Origin: an uncultured Faecalibacterium sp. | GTDB taxonomy: Bacteria; Bacillota; Clostridia; Oscillospirales; Ruminococcaceae | Direction: 5' to 3' | Length of the DNA stretch: 42,582 nucleotides | Assembly: GCA_944385995.1 (NCBI GenBank) | Contig: CALWZL010000013.1 | Span: 1 to 42,582 of the forward strand | Shown: positions 18,410 to 25,825 of the stretch, piece after piece | Position numbering within the stretch: the first letter of the stretch is position 1 | How the letters are laid out: the number at the start of each line of letters is the position of its first letter | Program-made: the position numbers and the translations under genes | Notes under the pieces: generated by a model | Database searches by the model: none | The model's input: the letters and a program-made list of their open reading frames with translations, nothing else | Told to the model about the DNA's origin: nothing

Positions 18410-19273
18410 TCAGCCCTTGCCGGCGCAGCCGAACAGCTCGATCTTCTCCTTGCACTTGTCGATGATGGCCTGTGCGCCGGGAGCCAGCAGCTTGCGGGGG
18501 TCGAAGCCCTTGCCCTGCTGATCCTTGCCAGCCTCGATGTACTTGCGGGTGGCCTCAGCAAAGACCAGCTGGCACTCGGTGTTGATGTTGATCTTGCAGA
18601 CGCCCAGGCTGATGGCCTTTGCGATCATCTCGTCGGGGATGCCGGTGCCGCCGTGCAGGACCAGAGGAATGTTGTTGGTGGCCTTGTGGATGCGGTCCAG
18701 AGCCTCGAAGTCCAGGCCCTTCCAGTTGGCCGGGTAGACACCGTGGATGTTGCCGATGCCGGCTGCCAGGAAGTCGATGCCCAGCTCGGTGATGCGGGCG
18801 CACTCAGCGGGATCAGCGATCTCGCCGGAGCCCACGACGCCGTCCTCGACGCCGCCGATGGAGCCGACCTCAGCCTCGATGGACATGCCGTTGGCATGAG
18901 CCAGGGCCACCAGCTCCTTGGTCTTTTCGACGTTCTCCTCGATGGGGTAGTGGCTGCCGTCGAACATGATGGACGAGAAGCCAGCCTCTACGCAGGCCTT
19001 GCAGCCCTCGTAGGTGCCGTGATCCAGGTGCAGAGCCACGGGCACGGTGATGCCCATGGAATCCACCATGGCCTTGACCATGGCAGCGACGGTCTTGAAG
19101 CCGGTCATATACTTGCCGGCGCCCTCAGACACACCCAGGATGACGGGGCTCTTGGTCTCCTCGCAGGCAGTCAGAACAGCCTTGGTCCACTCCAGGTTGT
19201 TGATGTTAAACTGGGGCACGCCATAGTGGCCGTCCCGTGCTTTCAGAAGCATTTCAGTTGCATTTACCAGCAT
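18410..19273 (-). CDS. fba: Class II fructose-1,6-bisphosphate aldolase
   Basis: Zinc-dependent cleavage of fructose 1,6-bisphosphate to dihydroxyacetone phosphate and glyceraldehyde 3-phosphate in glycolysis. The 287-residue product has the AFNINN-like start (here PQFNINNLEW), the metal site HLDHGTYEGC, the catalytic/metal Glu segment EAEVGSIGG, the IGNIHGVYP zinc His, and the phosphate-binding VLHGGTGIP and ININTE motifs. The size fits the short class IIA/IIB group. Its own promoter (19359-19387) and terminator frame it; codon use is strongly biased, as expected for a highly expressed gene. Confidence 0.96.
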   Translation of the reverse strand: MLVNATEMLLKARDGHYGVPQFNINNLEWTKAVLTACEETKSPVILGVSEGAGKYMTGFKTVAAMVKAMVDSMGITVPVALHLDHGTYEGCKACVEAGFSSIMFDGSHYPIEENVEKTKELVALAHANGMSIEAEVGSIGGVEDGVVGSGEIADPAECARITELGIDFLAAGIGNIHGVYPANWKGLDFEALDRIHKATNNIPLVLHGGTGIPDEMIAKAISLGVCKININTECQLVFAEATRKYIEAGKDQQGKGFDPRKLLAPGAQAIIDKCKEKIELFGCAGKG

Positions 19274-19326
19274 TGTTTCTTACCTCCAAGCATCTATTTT
19301 CCTATGGAAAAACATGGAATCAGCTT

Positions 19327-19345
19327 GTCCGCCGTTCTGGCGGAC
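19327..19345 (-). promoter_or_regulatory. Hairpin in the fba leader
   Basis: GTCCGCC (19327-19333) and GGCGGAC (19339-19345) form a perfect 7-bp stem with a five-base loop. It begins about seven bases after the predicted fba start site and may stabilise the 5' end of this mRNA. Confidence 0.55.
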
Positions 19346-19358
19346 CCCTGCTTTCACA

Positions 19359-19387
19359 AGTATAACCGAAATAGAAAGTAAAATCAA
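19359..19387 (-). promoter_or_regulatory. fba promoter
   Basis: On the minus strand TTGATT (19382-19387) and TATACT (19359-19364) are 17 bases apart. The -35 element overlaps the last codons of the upstream glycosylase gene. Confidence 0.72.
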
Positions 19388-20247
19388 TCGCAAGCCGGGT
19401 TTTTATGTGGTTTTTTTGTCAAACCCGTGCTGCGGGCCCAGGCAAAGATGTATTGCTGGGCGATGCCGGCGTGTCCGCCGGTCTTTCGATTCAGGTAGGC
19501 GGCGGGGTCTTTGACCCGGCCGGTGAACAGGGTCTGATCGGCCCGGCGGACCCAGACATCGATGGGATAGGCCTCCCAGCGGCCCAGCCCGTACAGCAGG
19601 GTGCAGTCGGCGACTTTGGGCCCCACCCCTTTGATTTCCATCAGCCGGGCCCTGGCCTCGGCCAGGGGCAGGGCCTGGAGCTGCGGCTGGGTGAGGGCGC
19701 CGGATGCCACCCGGCGGGCGGCGTCCAGAATGTAGCTGCTCCGCCATCCCGCCCGCAGAAAGGCGAGATCCGCCTCGGTGAGCGGGGCCAGACGCCGGGC
19801 GGAGGGGAAGGCGTAGAAGTTCCCGCCGTCGTCCAGCGGCTGGCCCAATCCCCGGCACAGCCGGTCCACAATCCCCCTGATCCGGGGGATGTTGTTGTTC
19901 TGGCTGATGAGGAAGGTGATGAGGGCTTCAAAGAAGGGCTGCCGCAGCACCCGGATGCCGGGGGCGCAGTCGATGCAGTTGGCCAGACCCGGATGGGCGG
20001 CCCGCATCCGGTCCAGCAGGGCGGGATAATCCAGGTCCAGGGCGAAATAGCCGGACCAGAAAGCCGGGTCGGGGTCGGGCCCGGCCAGGCCGGTGAGTTC
20101 CAGGCCGTCCCCGGGGACTTCCTGGACCCGGACCGCCTGTCCCTCCACAATGCCGGTCCAGCTGCCGTCGGGCTGGGACTGCCAGCGGAAACACTGGCCG
20201 CAGTCCAGGGTCTGGGCCAGCGACAGGCCCTTTGCCTTGAGATACAA
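19384..20247 (-). CDS. 8-oxoguanine DNA glycosylase of the OGG1 family
   Basis: Base-excision repair glycosylase/lyase for oxidised guanine. With the TTG start at 20247 the product is 287 residues. The N-terminal TBP-like domain contains LAQTLDCGQCFRW, as in OGG1, and the C-terminal half has the helix-hairpin-helix MEIKGVGPKVADC with the catalytic Lys211, followed by the conserved PIDVWVRR with Asp230. The TTG is chosen because a near-perfect AAGGAGG lies eight bases upstream; an upstream TTG at 20331 in the same frame would lie at the transcription start of the promoter 20333-20341. It probably protects DNA from oxidative damage alongside rubrerythrin in this anaerobe. Confidence 0.88.
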   Translation of the reverse strand: MYLKAKGLSLAQTLDCGQCFRWQSQPDGSWTGIVEGQAVRVQEVPGDGLELTGLAGPDPDPAFWSGYFALDLDYPALLDRMRAAHPGLANCIDCAPGIRVLRQPFFEALITFLISQNNNIPRIRGIVDRLCRGLGQPLDDGGNFYAFPSARRLAPLTEADLAFLRAGWRSSYILDAARRVASGALTQPQLQALPLAEARARLMEIKGVGPKVADCTLLYGLGRWEAYPIDVWVRRADQTLFTGRVKDPAAYLNRKTGGHAGIAQQYIFAWARSTGLTKKPHKNPACD

Positions 20248-20332
20248 ATGGATGACCTCCTTGGGGCAAAAGCCGCCCCTGTGGAAAGGGGAAAGAGGGC
20301 TCTGCCGCAGAATTTTACACAGTCTTTTCAAC

Positions 20333-20341
20333 AGTATATCA
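20333..20341 (-). promoter_or_regulatory. Extended -10 promoter of the glycosylase gene
   Basis: On the minus strand TGATATACT is a TGn-extended -10 box. The predicted start near 20326 leaves an 80-base leader to the TTG start at 20247. No matching -35 is seen. Confidence 0.5.
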
Positions 20342-20408
20342 CATCCGTCAAAGGGATGTCGGCATTTTCTGCAAACCAGGCCAGAATTCGGGCTCGAAAA
20401 TAGTCAGC

Positions 20409-20867: not shown

Positions 20868-21695
20868 ATGCAAGAGAATAAACCGCGCAGCCTCCGCCCG
20901 GGAAGCAGGGCTGACAAGACCGAACAGGGTCAGGAGATGCAGCCCAACGAACGCCTGGTCTATGGAAAAAATCCGGTGGCCGAGCTGCTCAAGAGCGGTT
21001 CCGGCGTGGATACCGTCATGCTGGCCGAGGGGATGGCCCCGGCCGTTGCATCGTATTATACCGCCCTGGCCAAGGAAGCCGGGGCCGCCGTCAAACGGGT
21101 ACATCCCAACAAGCTTCGCCTTCTGACCGGCACCGAGAGCCACCAGGGCGTGGCGGCCTTTGCCAGCGAGATTGCCTATGTGGAAGTGGATGACATGCTG
21201 GCCGCCGCCCGCGAGAAGGGGGAGCCCCCCTTTCTGGTCATCAGCGATGGAATTGAGGACCCCCACAACCTGGGCGCCGTGATGCGTTCGGCCCTGCTGT
21301 GCGGGGCCCATGGCATCATCATTCCCAAGCGGGGAGGCGCCTCGGTGACCCCCACCGTCATCAAGGCCAGCGCCGGCGCCGCCGAGCGGCTGCCGGTGGC
21401 CCGGGTGGTCAACATCAGCGAGACCATCCGCCGGCTGAAGGAGGAGGGCATTTTTGTCTATTGCGCCGACATGGACGGGGTGTCCCTGCGGAGCAACAAC
21501 CTGACCGGGCCCATTGCCCTGGTGCTGGGCAGCGAGGGCGGCGGCGTGTCGCAGCTGGTGAAAAAGCGGTGCGACGGGGTGCTGCGGCTGGAGATGGCAG
21601 CATCGGGCACCGGCGTGGACAGTTATAACGTCTCGGTGGCAGCCGGGATCATTCTCTACGAGATCCAGGCACAGCGCGCCGGAACGATGAAATGA
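20868..21695 (+). CDS. rlmB: 23S rRNA (guanosine-2'-O-)methyltransferase RlmB / TrmH family
   Basis: SPOUT-class SAM-dependent 2'-O-methyltransferase acting on a guanosine of 23S rRNA. The 275-residue product has an N-terminal substrate-binding domain (about 33-110: LVYGKNPVAELL, SHQGVAAFAS) and the knotted catalytic domain with the three family motifs: DGIEDPHNLGAVMRSA (motif 1, catalytic Arg), PIALVLGSEGGGVS (motif 2) and LRLEMAASGTGVDSYNVSVAAGI (motif 3). The ATG follows CAGGAGGAC. It has its own promoter and is followed after 37 bases by the pseudo-ATPase gene, probably in the same transcript. It could be another TrmH-family enzyme with a different target position. Confidence 0.92.
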   Translation: MQENKPRSLRPGSRADKTEQGQEMQPNERLVYGKNPVAELLKSGSGVDTVMLAEGMAPAVASYYTALAKEAGAAVKRVHPNKLRLLTGTESHQGVAAFASEIAYVEVDDMLAAAREKGEPPFLVISDGIEDPHNLGAVMRSALLCGAHGIIIPKRGGASVTPTVIKASAGAAERLPVARVVNISETIRRLKEEGIFVYCADMDGVSLRSNNLTGPIALVLGSEGGGVSQLVKKRCDGVLRLEMAASGTGVDSYNVSVAAGIILYEIQAQRAGTMK

Positions 21696-21732
21696 CCGGG
21701 GCGCAGAGAGCCTCGGGATGGGAGGGACAAGG

Positions 21733-24588
21733 ATGCCAAAGGATTCCGATCACCGGGAACTGACCCGGGAGGAACTCGAGCAGAAACAGCGAGAGAAGTT
21801 CAACACGTTTTTCACCACCAGTGTGGCGCAGGTGCCGGAAGAGATGATGAATCCCACCCGGGCCGCCAGCCAGCCCGACCGCAAGCATGGGCTGCTGGCC
21901 CGGTTTTTCGGCAAGCGGGCAAAGGCCAGAGGCACCCCGCCTCCCGACCAGGAGGAAGAGGAAGAACTCTTTTGGGCCGAGACCCCCATTGCGCCGGGCC
22001 CCACCGGCGAAATCATGCTGGACAGCGCAGACCCCCAGACAGAGCCTGTCACAGGTCCCTCTCTGGAGGAATTGACCCTGGAGCTGGAAGGGGTCCGGTC
22101 CAAACCGGAGCAGGCCCGGAAGGAAGAGCCGGCGCCCCAGCCCGAACAGCCCCCCAAACAGGAGGCCGGTCTGGCCGCGGCAAAGCTGGCCGCCGAGCTG
22201 GAAAAGCCCCGGCCCTCGGCCGCCGCCCGGGCAGAGGCCCGGCGGGCGGCCGCCCGTCAGGCCTCCCAGACCCCGGCGGTGAAAGTCTCGACGGCCCGGC
22301 CCGCCAAGACGGCGGCTGCGGTGAAAGTGGCCGCCCCGTCCAAACCGGCGGCGGCCCCGGTCCAGAATCCCACAGCGGCCCAGGCCACACCCGCCGCAGC
22401 AGCGGAAGCCTCGGCGCAGGATACGCCCCCGGCCCCCGAGAAAAAGCCCGTCCAGGCGAACCCCGAGCGGGAAAAACTCCAAAAGATTCTGGACGGCGGC
22501 AAAGGCACCCCCAGCCCCCGGAAAAAGAAGGTGGTTTCCAAGCCGGAAGAGGACAAGGAGATCACCCAGCAGGTGGGCGGGTTCCACTTTTTCGGGGTAG
22601 GGGAGGATGAAGCTCCCCGGGGAGAGCAAGCCCCGGCCCTGACCATGGACGACACCATGAGTCTGGAACTCCACGAAGAGGAGGAGGGGACGGAAACCCC
22701 GCTGGAGACTCCCAAACCTGCCGCCCCGGAACACGCGGCCAAAGGCTGGCGGCCGGGCAAAAAGGGAAAGACCGAGACAGCCCCCGAACATGCGGCGGCC
22801 AGCCCGGACAACTCCGAAGAGGAACCCAAGCCCGCCTCCAAACCCGAGGAGGAGCCGGACCAGCCCGAAGAGCCCCAGACCGCCGAAGATGCGGCCCGGG
22901 CCTTGAACCAGACGGTGGCGGCCATGAACCTCCGGTGTGCCCTCAGCGGCATTCTGGCGGCGGCCCTGCTCTGGGCCGGATTCATCTATGAGGGATATCT
23001 GCCCGGGATGGATGGCCTTGCACCCGACACCGCCCCGGCGGCCTTTTTGGGGGCCAACCTGCTGTTGCTGGCGGGGGTCCTGGCGGTTTCCCGCCATACC
23101 ATGCGGGATGGTCTGCTGGGGCTTTTGAAAACGCCTTCCTATGACACCATGCCGGCACTGGCCGGCGCGGCGGCCCTGCTGCAATCGGTGGTGGCCCTGC
23201 TGAATCCCCAAGCGTATCAGGGCACCACCCTGACCCTGATGAGCGGCGCGGCAGCCCTGGCCCTCTTTCTGAACAATCTGGGCAGCCGTTTTCTGGCGGT
23301 TTCGGTCCGGGACGGCTACAAGATTGCCACCAGCGGGGTGGCCCATGAGGGGGCCTATCGGGCCCAGGACAAGGAGTTGATCCGCGGTCTGGTCCCCGCC
23401 CTGGAAAAGAAGGACCCCTGGATTCTGCTCAGCCGGCCCATGGAGGGAGACGGCTCCTTCCTGTCCCAGAGCTTCAGCCCCCGGGCCGGGGAAAAGAAGG
23501 TCCAGCTGCTGGCCCGGATTTTGCTGGGCTGCGCAGCGGTGGGCGGCATCCTGATGCTGCTGACCGGCAAGGGGATAAACGGCGCCGTCGCGGCCATTGC
23601 CTCGATCCTCTGCCTGGGCGCTCCTCTCTCCTCCACCCTGATTGCGGGCCTGACGGCCCTGCAAACCGAGCGGACCGCCGGCGCAGTGGGGGCTGTGATT
23701 CCGGGATGGGCCGGCATCGAGGAACTGAACGGCATCGACACCGTCCAGGTGGACGCCGGGGAACTGTTCACCCCCGAGAGCGCCCAGCTGGAGGACATCC
23801 GCATCTTCAAGGGCGGCCGGATTGACCGGGCCATCCTCTATACGGCCAGCGTTTTGAATCAGGGCTGCAACACCCTCAGCCGGTTGTTCCGCACCATCAT
23901 CGCGGACCGCACCGACATCCTTCCCCCGGTGAAAGATCTGGAACGCCACACCGGTTTGGGTTTCTCGGGCTGGTGCGAAAACAACCGGATTCTGATCGGC
24001 ACCCGGGCCTATATGGAACAGGAGGGAATCGCCCTGCCCGATCTGAGCTATGAAGCCCAGCATTCCCGGGACGGGGAAATGCAGATCCTGTATCTGGCTG
24101 TGTCGGGCAATATGTACGCCATGTTTGTGCTGCGGTATATCGGCGGCAAGCATGCCGCCCGCTGCCTGTCCATCCTCCACCGGGAAAACATCCGTCTGCT
24201 GGTCACCTGCCAGGACCCCTCTTTGACGGCGGAAAAAATCGCGGCCGCCTACCATATGCCCGAGGGCCTGATTACGGTGCTGGGTGAGTCCCAGTGCAAG
24301 GCGCTGGCCCCCGCCATCACCGCCATCCAGGACGCCCCCTGCTGCATGCTCCATCTCAAGGGCTTCACCAGTCTCACCGGCGGCCTCCGGGCCGCCCAGC
24401 GGGCCCAGGCGGCCGAGAGCGCCGGCGTCGCCATCCAGCTGGTGTCGGCGGGATTCTCGGCGCTCATCGGGCTTCTGCTGAGCTATTCGGGCAGCGTGGG
24501 CACCCTGTCGCTGCTGGTGGTTTTGATGTATCAGGCGGCCTGGAGCGGCCTGGGCATTGCGGTGGCCGCCATGAAACAGCACAGCTGA
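21733..24588 (+). CDS. Degenerate P1B-type ATPase-like membrane protein with long disordered N-terminus
   Basis: A 951-residue protein. Residues 1-390 are Pro/Ala/Glu/Lys-rich and look disordered. The rest has P1B-ATPase topology: four helices (about 399-421, 436-454, 473-491, 500-520), a shrunken actuator-like loop (520-590), two helices (591-640), a cytoplasmic region (645-890) and two last helices (900-918, 923-947). The sixth helix reads CLGAPLSS (Cys627) where transporters have CPC/CPH, followed by the A-x-G-x-VI-x-G-x-x-x-IEEL pattern. The phosphorylation motif DKTGTLT is replaced by D674-AGELFT, TGD by T825-CQD, and GDGxND is absent. A nucleotide-binding-like HTGLGFSGW...IGTRAYM segment (739 on) remains. 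I infer a pseudoenzyme. The start at 21733 has GGAGGG six bases upstream. It is probably co-transcribed with rlmB. Confidence 0.75.
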   Translation: MPKDSDHRELTREELEQKQREKFNTFFTTSVAQVPEEMMNPTRAASQPDRKHGLLARFFGKRAKARGTPPPDQEEEEELFWAETPIAPGPTGEIMLDSADPQTEPVTGPSLEELTLELEGVRSKPEQARKEEPAPQPEQPPKQEAGLAAAKLAAELEKPRPSAAARAEARRAAARQASQTPAVKVSTARPAKTAAAVKVAAPSKPAAAPVQNPTAAQATPAAAAEASAQDTPPAPEKKPVQANPEREKLQKILDGGKGTPSPRKKKVVSKPEEDKEITQQVGGFHFFGVGEDEAPRGEQAPALTMDDTMSLELHEEEEGTETPLETPKPAAPEHAAKGWRPGKKGKTETAPEHAAASPDNSEEEPKPASKPEEEPDQPEEPQTAEDAARALNQTVAAMNLRCALSGILAAALLWAGFIYEGYLPGMDGLAPDTAPAAFLGANLLLLAGVLAVSRHTMRDGLLGLLKTPSYDTMPALAGAAALLQSVVALLNPQAYQGTTLTLMSGAAALALFLNNLGSRFLAVSVRDGYKIATSGVAHEGAYRAQDKELIRGLVPALEKKDPWILLSRPMEGDGSFLSQSFSPRAGEKKVQLLARILLGCAAVGGILMLLTGKGINGAVAAIASILCLGAPLSSTLIAGLTALQTERTAGAVGAVIPGWAGIEELNGIDTVQVDAGELFTPESAQLEDIRIFKGGRIDRAILYTASVLNQGCNTLSRLFRTIIADRTDILPPVKDLERHTGLGFSGWCENNRILIGTRAYMEQEGIALPDLSYEAQHSRDGEMQILYLAVSGNMYAMFVLRYIGGKHAARCLSILHRENIRLLVTCQDPSLTAEKIAAAYHMPEGLITVLGESQCKALAPAITAIQDAPCCMLHLKGFTSLTGGLRAAQRAQAAESAGVAIQLVSAGFSALIGLLLSYSGSVGTLSLLVVLMYQAAWSGLGIAVAAMKQHS

Positions 24589-24640: not shown

Positions 24641-24675
24641 TTGCAATCCGGGATTGTATGAAGTATAATACAATC
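24641..24675 (+). promoter_or_regulatory. Rubrerythrin promoter with overlapping dyad
   Basis: TTGCAA (24641-24646) and TATAAT (24664-24669) are 17 bases apart. A second perfect inverted repeat, GATTGTAT (24652-24659) and ATACAATC (24668-24675) with an 8-base centre, covers the spacer and the -10 box and looks like an operator. Confidence 0.8.
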
Positions 24676-25418: not shown

Positions 25419-25742
25419 TTACAGATCCAGTTTGCCTTCCACTTTGTTGACGACATAGTAGGCGGCGCCATCCTCCGGCTTGATATAGATCTTGCAGGAC
25501 TGGACACCCACCTTGTGGGTCAGACGGTAATCGGCTTTGGCCCGCTCGACAATGTCGGTCACGTTGTACTGATGGCCGCCGGTTTCGATATAAATCTCGG
25601 GAGAAAGAGGCGGGCGGCCCCGGCGCGGGGTCGATTTTGCGGACTTTTGGGTTTTGCGCTTGGGCTCAGAAGCCGGAGCATCTTGCGCCGGAACTTCAGG
25701 CAGGGGCGTATCGACGGATGCGGCAGCTTTCTTTGCGGACAT
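25419..25742 (-). CDS. DUF6465-type small protein with AT-hook-like motif
   Basis: A 107-residue product. The first half is Ala/Pro/Lys-rich and basic, with RRGRPPL (about residues 40-46), the core of an AT-hook for minor-groove DNA binding. The second half is a small alpha/beta unit with IYIETGGHQYNVTDIVERAKADY and KIYIKPEDGAAYYVVN, which I believe is the DUF6465 pattern common in Clostridia. The function is unknown; nucleic-acid or nucleoid binding is a guess from the motif. The start at 25742 is preferred over an ATG at 25748 because AAAGGTGG then lies at a normal distance. It has its own promoter at 25826-25854. Confidence 0.75.
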   Translation of the reverse strand: MSAKKAAASVDTPLPEVPAQDAPASEPKRKTQKSAKSTPRRGRPPLSPEIYIETGGHQYNVTDIVERAKADYRLTHKVGVQSCKIYIKPEDGAAYYVVNKVEGKLDL

Positions 25743-25825
25743 TTCCATCCACCTTTCTTTCGTTCTTTTTTATGGGGAACCGCCGCAGCGCCGGAGGCTG
25801 CGGGGCATAAAAACTGACTATTTAT

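Follow-up and report, generated by a model that had tools for sequence, protein, structure and literature searches.

What becomes of a membrane pump that can no longer pump? The question is raised by a gene in a 42,582-nucleotide (nt) stretch of DNA from an uncultured Faecalibacterium sp. (assembly GCA_944385995.1, contig CALWZL010000013.1), which we refer to as the window. Faecalibacterium is a major commensal of the human gut. The gene, at 21733–24588 on the forward strand, encodes a protein with the architecture of a P1B-type ATPase and none of its catalytic motifs in intact form; in the following, we refer to this pseudo-P1B-ATPase and its family as the pseudo-pump. Within the P1B ATPases, the family forms a branch of pseudoenzymes. 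Because the catalytic motifs are gone and the ratio of nonsynonymous to synonymous substitution rates (dN/dS) in the core is low, we are confident that selection maintains a protein that should be unable to form the phosphoenzyme, and its job in the membrane is very likely a new one that differs from pumping. An original prediction, made from the letters of this DNA, had already interpreted the protein as a pseudoenzyme. Our analysis supports that interpretation and adds an order-wide pairing with the gene rlmB, which the prediction had missed.

A P1B fold without catalytic motifs

The predicted open reading frame was confirmed: it starts with the ATG at 21733, is preceded at a distance of 6 nt by a Shine-Dalgarno-like GGAGGG (21721–21726, forward strand), and runs for 951 residues to a stop codon that ends at 24588. 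Family libraries hardly recognize the product. Pfam yields no match for the window protein and, among 34 family members, a single one (HAD Hydrolase, E 0.0045). The NCBIfam CopA model matches residues 623–858 with an E-value of 6.1e-14, scoring 51 bits where 1316 are required; a second NCBIfam score lies similarly far under its cut-off (32 vs 346 bits), and phmmer matches the protein to the copper pump LpCopA at E 1.2e-5. Structure prediction with AlphaFold2, from an alignment of the window protein with 64 relatives, drawn from 76 named loci that had been aligned, gave a core (residues 376–951) with a predicted local distance difference test score (pLDDT) of 88.3 and a predicted template modelling score of 0.81. 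Its best match in the PDB is LpCopA (4bbj; Foldseek E 2.4e-18, template modelling score 0.59 by query length). Ranks one to nine are copper P1B pumps and rank ten is a zinc P1B pump, the top two being 15 and 16% identical to the core. Given the E-values of the CopA profile and the fold match, the likeness to P1B pumps is beyond chance, and the P-type fold that structure prediction was to look for is predicted with high confidence.

The models also bear out the predicted topology, with eight helices in the 4-2-2 order of P1B pumps in both the core and the full-length model, and in the latter a head between helices 6 and 7; judging from their hydrophobic sequence and homology, these helices are predicted to cross the membrane. 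The first four (residues 384–532; 22882–23328) can be named MA, MB, M1 and M2 by analogy. They are followed by a remnant actuator domain (533–584; 23329–23484), the helix pair M3/M4 (585–651; 23485–23685), a nucleotide-domain-like segment (684–802; 23782–24138) within a P/N-domain fold, as had been proposed, and the last two helices (878–950; 24364–24582). In front of this core lies an N-terminal extension with a high content of A, E, P and K (residues 1–376; 21733–22860). Its expected disorder is borne out in the full-length model, where 294 of 951 residues have a pLDDT below 50 and all segments listed as such fall within residues 1–376, although its length is about 376 rather than the proposed 390 residues and it includes a few short helices, of which residues 12–29 are the most confident.

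We counted residues and motifs in 122 distinct family members, deduplicated across collections, and compared them with six control P1B pumps from the window's genome and its relatives. These controls were selected for containing DKTGT, the presence of which is therefore no result; all six have TGES, TGD and GDGIND, and four have CPC. None of the 122 pseudo-pumps has DKTGT or GDGxND. At the place of DKTGTLT, the window protein reads DAGELFT (residues 674–680; 23752–23772), and the family has a signature of its own, [DE]-L-F-P or [DE]-L-F-T. The motif had thus been read correctly, but its aspartate is no conserved remnant of the phosphorylation site, as the column holds D in 48 and G in 27 members and other residues in the remainder. 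By contrast, the aspartate of the old TGD motif, which has become TCQD (825–828; 24205–24216) as originally described, is nearly invariant (Asp828, 121/122). The same holds for two glycines in the nucleotide-domain-like segment (Gly756 in all members, Gly743 in 121), which has lost the HP motif in the window protein. The segment with GDGxND, which should precede the last two helices, is missing. Likewise, the actuator has shrunk to about 52 residues, roughly half-size, and its phosphatase loop is lost; aligned controls carry a longer, TGES-bearing insert there. TGES is absent from the window protein in this alignment, and a TGE[SNAHP] pattern occurs somewhere in six of the 122 cores, counted irrespective of where the actuator lies. 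Finally, the suspected remnant of the CPx site is found as CLGAP (627–631), its GAP aligning with the CPC of the controls. By what is established for P-type pumps, a protein with these losses should not be capable of the normal catalytic cycle.

As DKTGT and GDGxND are missing from every orthologue examined, we are dealing with one ancient, conserved family and not with a decayed copy. Besides the window, 29 of 30 other Faecalibacterium genomes have the gene, at 38–85% identity, and a profile search (E<=1e-45) found it in single copy in 109 of the 117 sampled genomes of its GTDB order, with none in 279 genomes from other orders of the class. The original prediction had proposed to test conservation across Oscillospiraceae; the range turns out to be wider than one bacterial family. 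The best match outside the order (E 4.6e-36) is confined to model positions 212–486, which correspond to M4-P-N; true pumps would be expected to match there. In a tree with 14 true P1B rows, selected by DKTG[TE], all 30 family rows fall into one clade with a branch support of 100/100, in the presence of long branches. The alignments behind these analyses comprise 34 of 47 members (A1) and the window protein plus 64 of 76 (A3); the first alignment excludes the partial or stop-bearing L026, L028 and L033, and the second the contig-edge fragments L067, L069 and L124. The family is a single-origin pseudoenzyme lineage derived from a copper-type P1B pump.

It is also under purifying selection. Among ten pairs, core dN/dS is 0.140–0.231 in the closest eight, for which rlmB has 0.085–0.154, and 0.37–0.42 in the two most distant, where synonymous change is high. 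Of the 109 matches in the order, 108 are free of internal stops, some of them being partial; the copy in G058 has an in-frame TGA, and that in G047 is apparently split in two.

Tail peptides shared with other membrane proteins

Across the family, the N-terminal tail (taken from the 120 N-termini that reach 60 residues) has a median length of 311 residues and is acidic and rich in proline and alanine. Two short peptides recur in it far more often than in shuffled sequences: an FxxFF motif in 66 of the 120 tails (1.0 in shuffles) and a DDIL-type peptide in 47 (0.8 in shuffles). The window protein carries the FxxFF type, contained in KFNTFFTTSVAQVP, within a conserved stretch at residues 12–35 (21766–21837) that also has a docking-type helix (residues 12–29 in the model). 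To the eye, the Faecalibacterium member L027 and members from Gemmiger/Fournierella show both peptides or an apparent relict of both, and for this reason the clade of the window has probably lost one of the two types. As a separate observation, the disordered tail of the window protein has a TGE[IV]x[LF] element at residues 91–96 (22003–22020), which is also seen in other Faecalibacterium members such as L015, L024 and L027; it occurs in 35 of the 120 N-termini (0.07 in shuffles), of which 28 belong to the 29 Faecalibacterium loci and seven to the 91 from other genera.

The DDIL-type peptide is also found on proteins that are unrelated to pumps. Searched at the DNA level, the pattern [FY]-x-x-[DE]-D-I-L-A-E matched 38 places in 36 of 394 genomes of the order, and its reversed control none. 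Of these places, 35 are pseudo-pump N-termini, 29 by profile and six as N-terminal fragments, two of which we assigned by the neighbouring rlmB and four by resemblance. The remaining three are one lipoprotein signal peptidase, LspA (PF01252, E 1.7e-38), with the peptide at the extreme C-terminus of a long tail, and two permeases (L209:427–1749 and L238:73–1566, both on the reverse strand) whose long N-termini begin with the peptide. Both are ABC-2 proteins for which a Wzm-type galactan exporter is the nearest match, under its cut-off; the peptide is followed by another short segment (in L238, SATMILNSIDEKKK) that looks, by eye, like one found in the N-termini of pseudo-pumps from the same genus.

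To follow the LspA tails, we used the 30 best-scoring LspA loci of 57 genomes, all from one bacterial family and found with a tailed query, a set that leans towards tailed LspA. Tails of at least 60 residues are present in 14 of the 30, and in 11 of these the peptide forms the end of the tail (0.003 on average in shuffles, at most 1). These 11 tails, of 103–247 residues with a [FY]SxDDILAEF-like end (L242–L250, L252 and L255; L193 and L212 hold the same protein as L242), are a feature for which our literature search found no description. The tails of LspA and of the permeases are presumably cytoplasmic. A peptide that stays constant at the ends of otherwise hypervariable tails, on membrane proteins unrelated to one another, has the appearance of a docking motif. 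It may loosely resemble the peptide at the C-terminus of FtsZ, which could serve as a lead.

Two broader patterns were discarded. A genome-wide search for a partner with a loose DDIL.E pattern gave ten matches in eight genomes, in the pseudo-pump gene and in unrelated proteins. A first DNA pattern had, by eye, several matches inside EF-Ts, an ABC1-like kinase and others, and was replaced by the narrower DDILAE pattern.

Pairing with rlmB and other neighbours

In the window, the pseudo-pump gene follows rlmB (20868–21695, forward strand; TIGR00186 E 5.4e-63, above cut-off), which encodes the 23S ribosomal RNA (guanosine2251-2'-O)-methyltransferase, and 37 nt separate the rlmB stop from the start codon. 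A consensus scan, the matches of which are weak evidence, showed no promoter-like site between the two genes and one such site at 24641–24669, before a rubrerythrin gene. Lying directly downstream, on the same strand and behind a short gap, the gene has the layout expected of a transcription unit with rlmB.

This layout is shared throughout the family. We surveyed 149 pseudo-pump loci, 126 of them distinct by their last 300 residues and six of these too short to judge, and found rlmB directly upstream on the same strand in 119 of the 120 testable loci. The gap has a median of 23 nt, is at most 50 nt in 109 of the 119, and is longest in L033 (1,106 nt); the one exception, L035/G031, has no rlmB within the 1,093 bp available upstream. 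A separate whole-genome search of the 117 genomes with TIGR00186, which shares genomes with part of the surveyed loci, found the pseudo-pump gene in 109, RlmB in 109, and both in 107. In 102 of these 107, the genes are adjacent and co-oriented; in the other five they lie on different contigs.

The downstream side varies. Most Faecalibacterium loci and some relatives have rubrerythrin there; elsewhere, EF-G-like, chromate-transporter-like and other genes follow (17 loci, by eye), and a conserved downstream partner was rejected. In Bacillus, the gene order has YacP/Rae1 behind rlmB. The idea that the pseudo-pump replaces this gene is unsupported, as PF05991 is present in 16 of 59 genomes of the order, including that of the window. 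One such NYN match of the YacP/Rae1 type, in L151 (G043:C2, about 95896–98700, reverse strand), lies just downstream of a GTPase similar to EF-G or ribosome-protection proteins, perhaps in one frame with it, and YacP matches of other genomes also sit in long open frames. Around the rlmB unit, the window further encodes a fructose-bisphosphate aldolase and an OGG-type 8-oxoguanine glycosylase on the opposite strand (18413–20403, reverse), and a small DUF6465 protein near the rubrerythrin gene (25419–25748, reverse).

Possible roles and known systems

On balance, we favour a reading in which the catalytically dead pump has been re-used as a membrane-anchored docking platform, a role proposed from its architecture. 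The eight-helix core would serve as the membrane anchor. The P/N-like head, in which conservation centres on Asp828, Gly743/756 and the ELFP loop, would offer a static or ligand-gated binding surface and might sense a ligand around Asp828 and the N-domain glycines, and the docking peptides of the N-terminal tail would bring in a partner from the cytosol. In this manner, proteins could be gathered at the membrane without pumping, as by scaffolds of the pseudokinase type, and co-expression with rlmB would scale the dose of the pseudo-pump with translation capacity. The original prediction had offered a membrane scaffold or sensor as an idea, to which the conserved docking-type peptides of the tail now lend support.

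Several observations weigh against such a platform. The peptide that the family has in common with LspA and the permeases, the DDIL type, is absent from the window protein and occurs in 1 of 29 Faecalibacterium N-termini, compared with 46 of 91 outside the genus. As judged by regular expressions, 32 of the 122 members show neither this type nor FxxFF. In seven genomes from a single bacterial family (f10), the open frames span only 550–554 residues, and these members hence go without the N-terminal extension (L130 being the one of which the sequence was inspected). Lastly, the link with rlmB may be inherited gene order without functional coupling.

A wider version of the docking platform is conceivable, and we put it forward tentatively: an order-specific assembly in which a cytosolic hub would read the acidic, amphipathic DDILAEF-type peptide on the variable disordered tails of otherwise unrelated envelope proteins (the dead P1B pump, the lipoprotein signal peptidase LspA and a polysaccharide-export permease) and thereby cluster them at the membrane. 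The dead pump, co-produced with RlmB, would be the standing anchor of this assembly.

Other roles appear less probable. The membrane domain might have become a passive conduit, that is, an ungated or ligand-gated ion channel, a metal channel or a lipid scramblase with the head as its gate. The 4-2-2 domain is indeed retained at high model confidence, and 112 of the 122 members keep a kinked M4 with proline. However, the CPx site has no conserved metal-binding residues, given that C627 is present in 79 members and aligns off the CPC cysteines of the control pumps, and the long N-terminal tail would go unexplained; we consider a conduit unlikely.

The pairing with rlmB raises the prospect that RlmB itself is the partner, with the pseudo-pump as a membrane tether for the methyltransferase or for intermediates of 50S assembly. 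Beyond the 102 of 107 genomes with adjacent, co-oriented genes, six of the 117 lack both, three of which are at least 97% complete, and the co-occurrence has a Fisher p of 2.4e-7, but this value is inflated, and the joint absence confounded, by missing contigs and shared ancestry. Moreover, two genomes have the pseudo-pump gene without a RlmB match and two have rlmB without the gene; G037 has the two genes on separate contigs, with the pseudo-pump gene 36 kb away from the end of its own, and L035/G031 stands apart as described above. RlmB was also found in 10 of 14 control genomes, which were not searched for the pseudo-pump and are expected to be without it. A partnership of this kind therefore seems quite unlikely to us.

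In a third scenario, the pseudo-pump is a dead regulatory subunit in a heteromer with a genuine P1B pump of the same cell. Such a pump is matched at E<=1e-90 in 115 of the 117 genomes of the order, but because real P1B pumps are nearly universal in the sample, this co-occurrence says little. Two genomes, G415 (94% complete) and G368 (87%), have the pseudo-pump but no P1B match at this threshold, and in the window the gene adjoins rlmB and not a pump, which leaves this role improbable. Finally, that the gene is a decayed, functionless pump is hardly credible, for despite the lost motifs and the few broken or partial copies (such as G058 and G047), it is kept order-wide in single copy, nearly always free of internal stops, with a core dN/dS well below 1 and near-invariant non-catalytic residues.

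With the gene in 109 of 117 sampled genomes, the pseudo-pump probably does something important in the order that includes Faecalibacterium, while going unnamed by family libraries. The pairing with rlmB and the docking peptides turn an unknown protein into concrete questions, namely which partner binds the peptides and what effect the pseudo-pump has on ribosomes, the envelope or metal handling. A classification of uncharacterised P-type families has reportedly been published, which was not part of our novelty comparison. Our literature search, outside of which lie most subscription journals, found no description of a catalytically dead P-type ATPase family, of the pairing with rlmB or of the peptide, nor do the passages matched by term in a P-type ATPase review (PMC10654040) describe a catalytically dead family. 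The pseudo-pumps may thus be the first such family to be described.

Among known systems, the closest are the CopA-type P1B-1 ATPases (LpCopA, 4bbj/3rfu; NCBIfam NF007952). With these, the pseudo-pump has in common the eight-helix 4-2-2 membrane domain, the HAD-type P domain and the N-domain fold, a local sequence match in the M4-P-N part and, by eye, an M1 region like that of the CopA-like controls. Unlike CopA, the window protein has no metal-binding domains and lacks CPC, TGES, DKTGT, HP and GDGxND, scores far under the NCBIfam cut-offs, and combines an actuator of about half the size with a long disordered N-terminal tail. In other respects it resembles scaffolds of the pseudokinase class, which, as generally described, likewise unite a conserved fold with lost catalysis, purifying selection and docking peptides; their fold is different, however, and the pseudo-pump is a multi-spanning membrane protein. 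Finally, with the tailed LspA and the Wzm-like permeases of the same order, which carry a docking tail and a docking N-terminus, respectively, the family shares a [FY]SxDDILAEF-type peptide on a disordered tail, whereas its membrane domain and function are unrelated to theirs.

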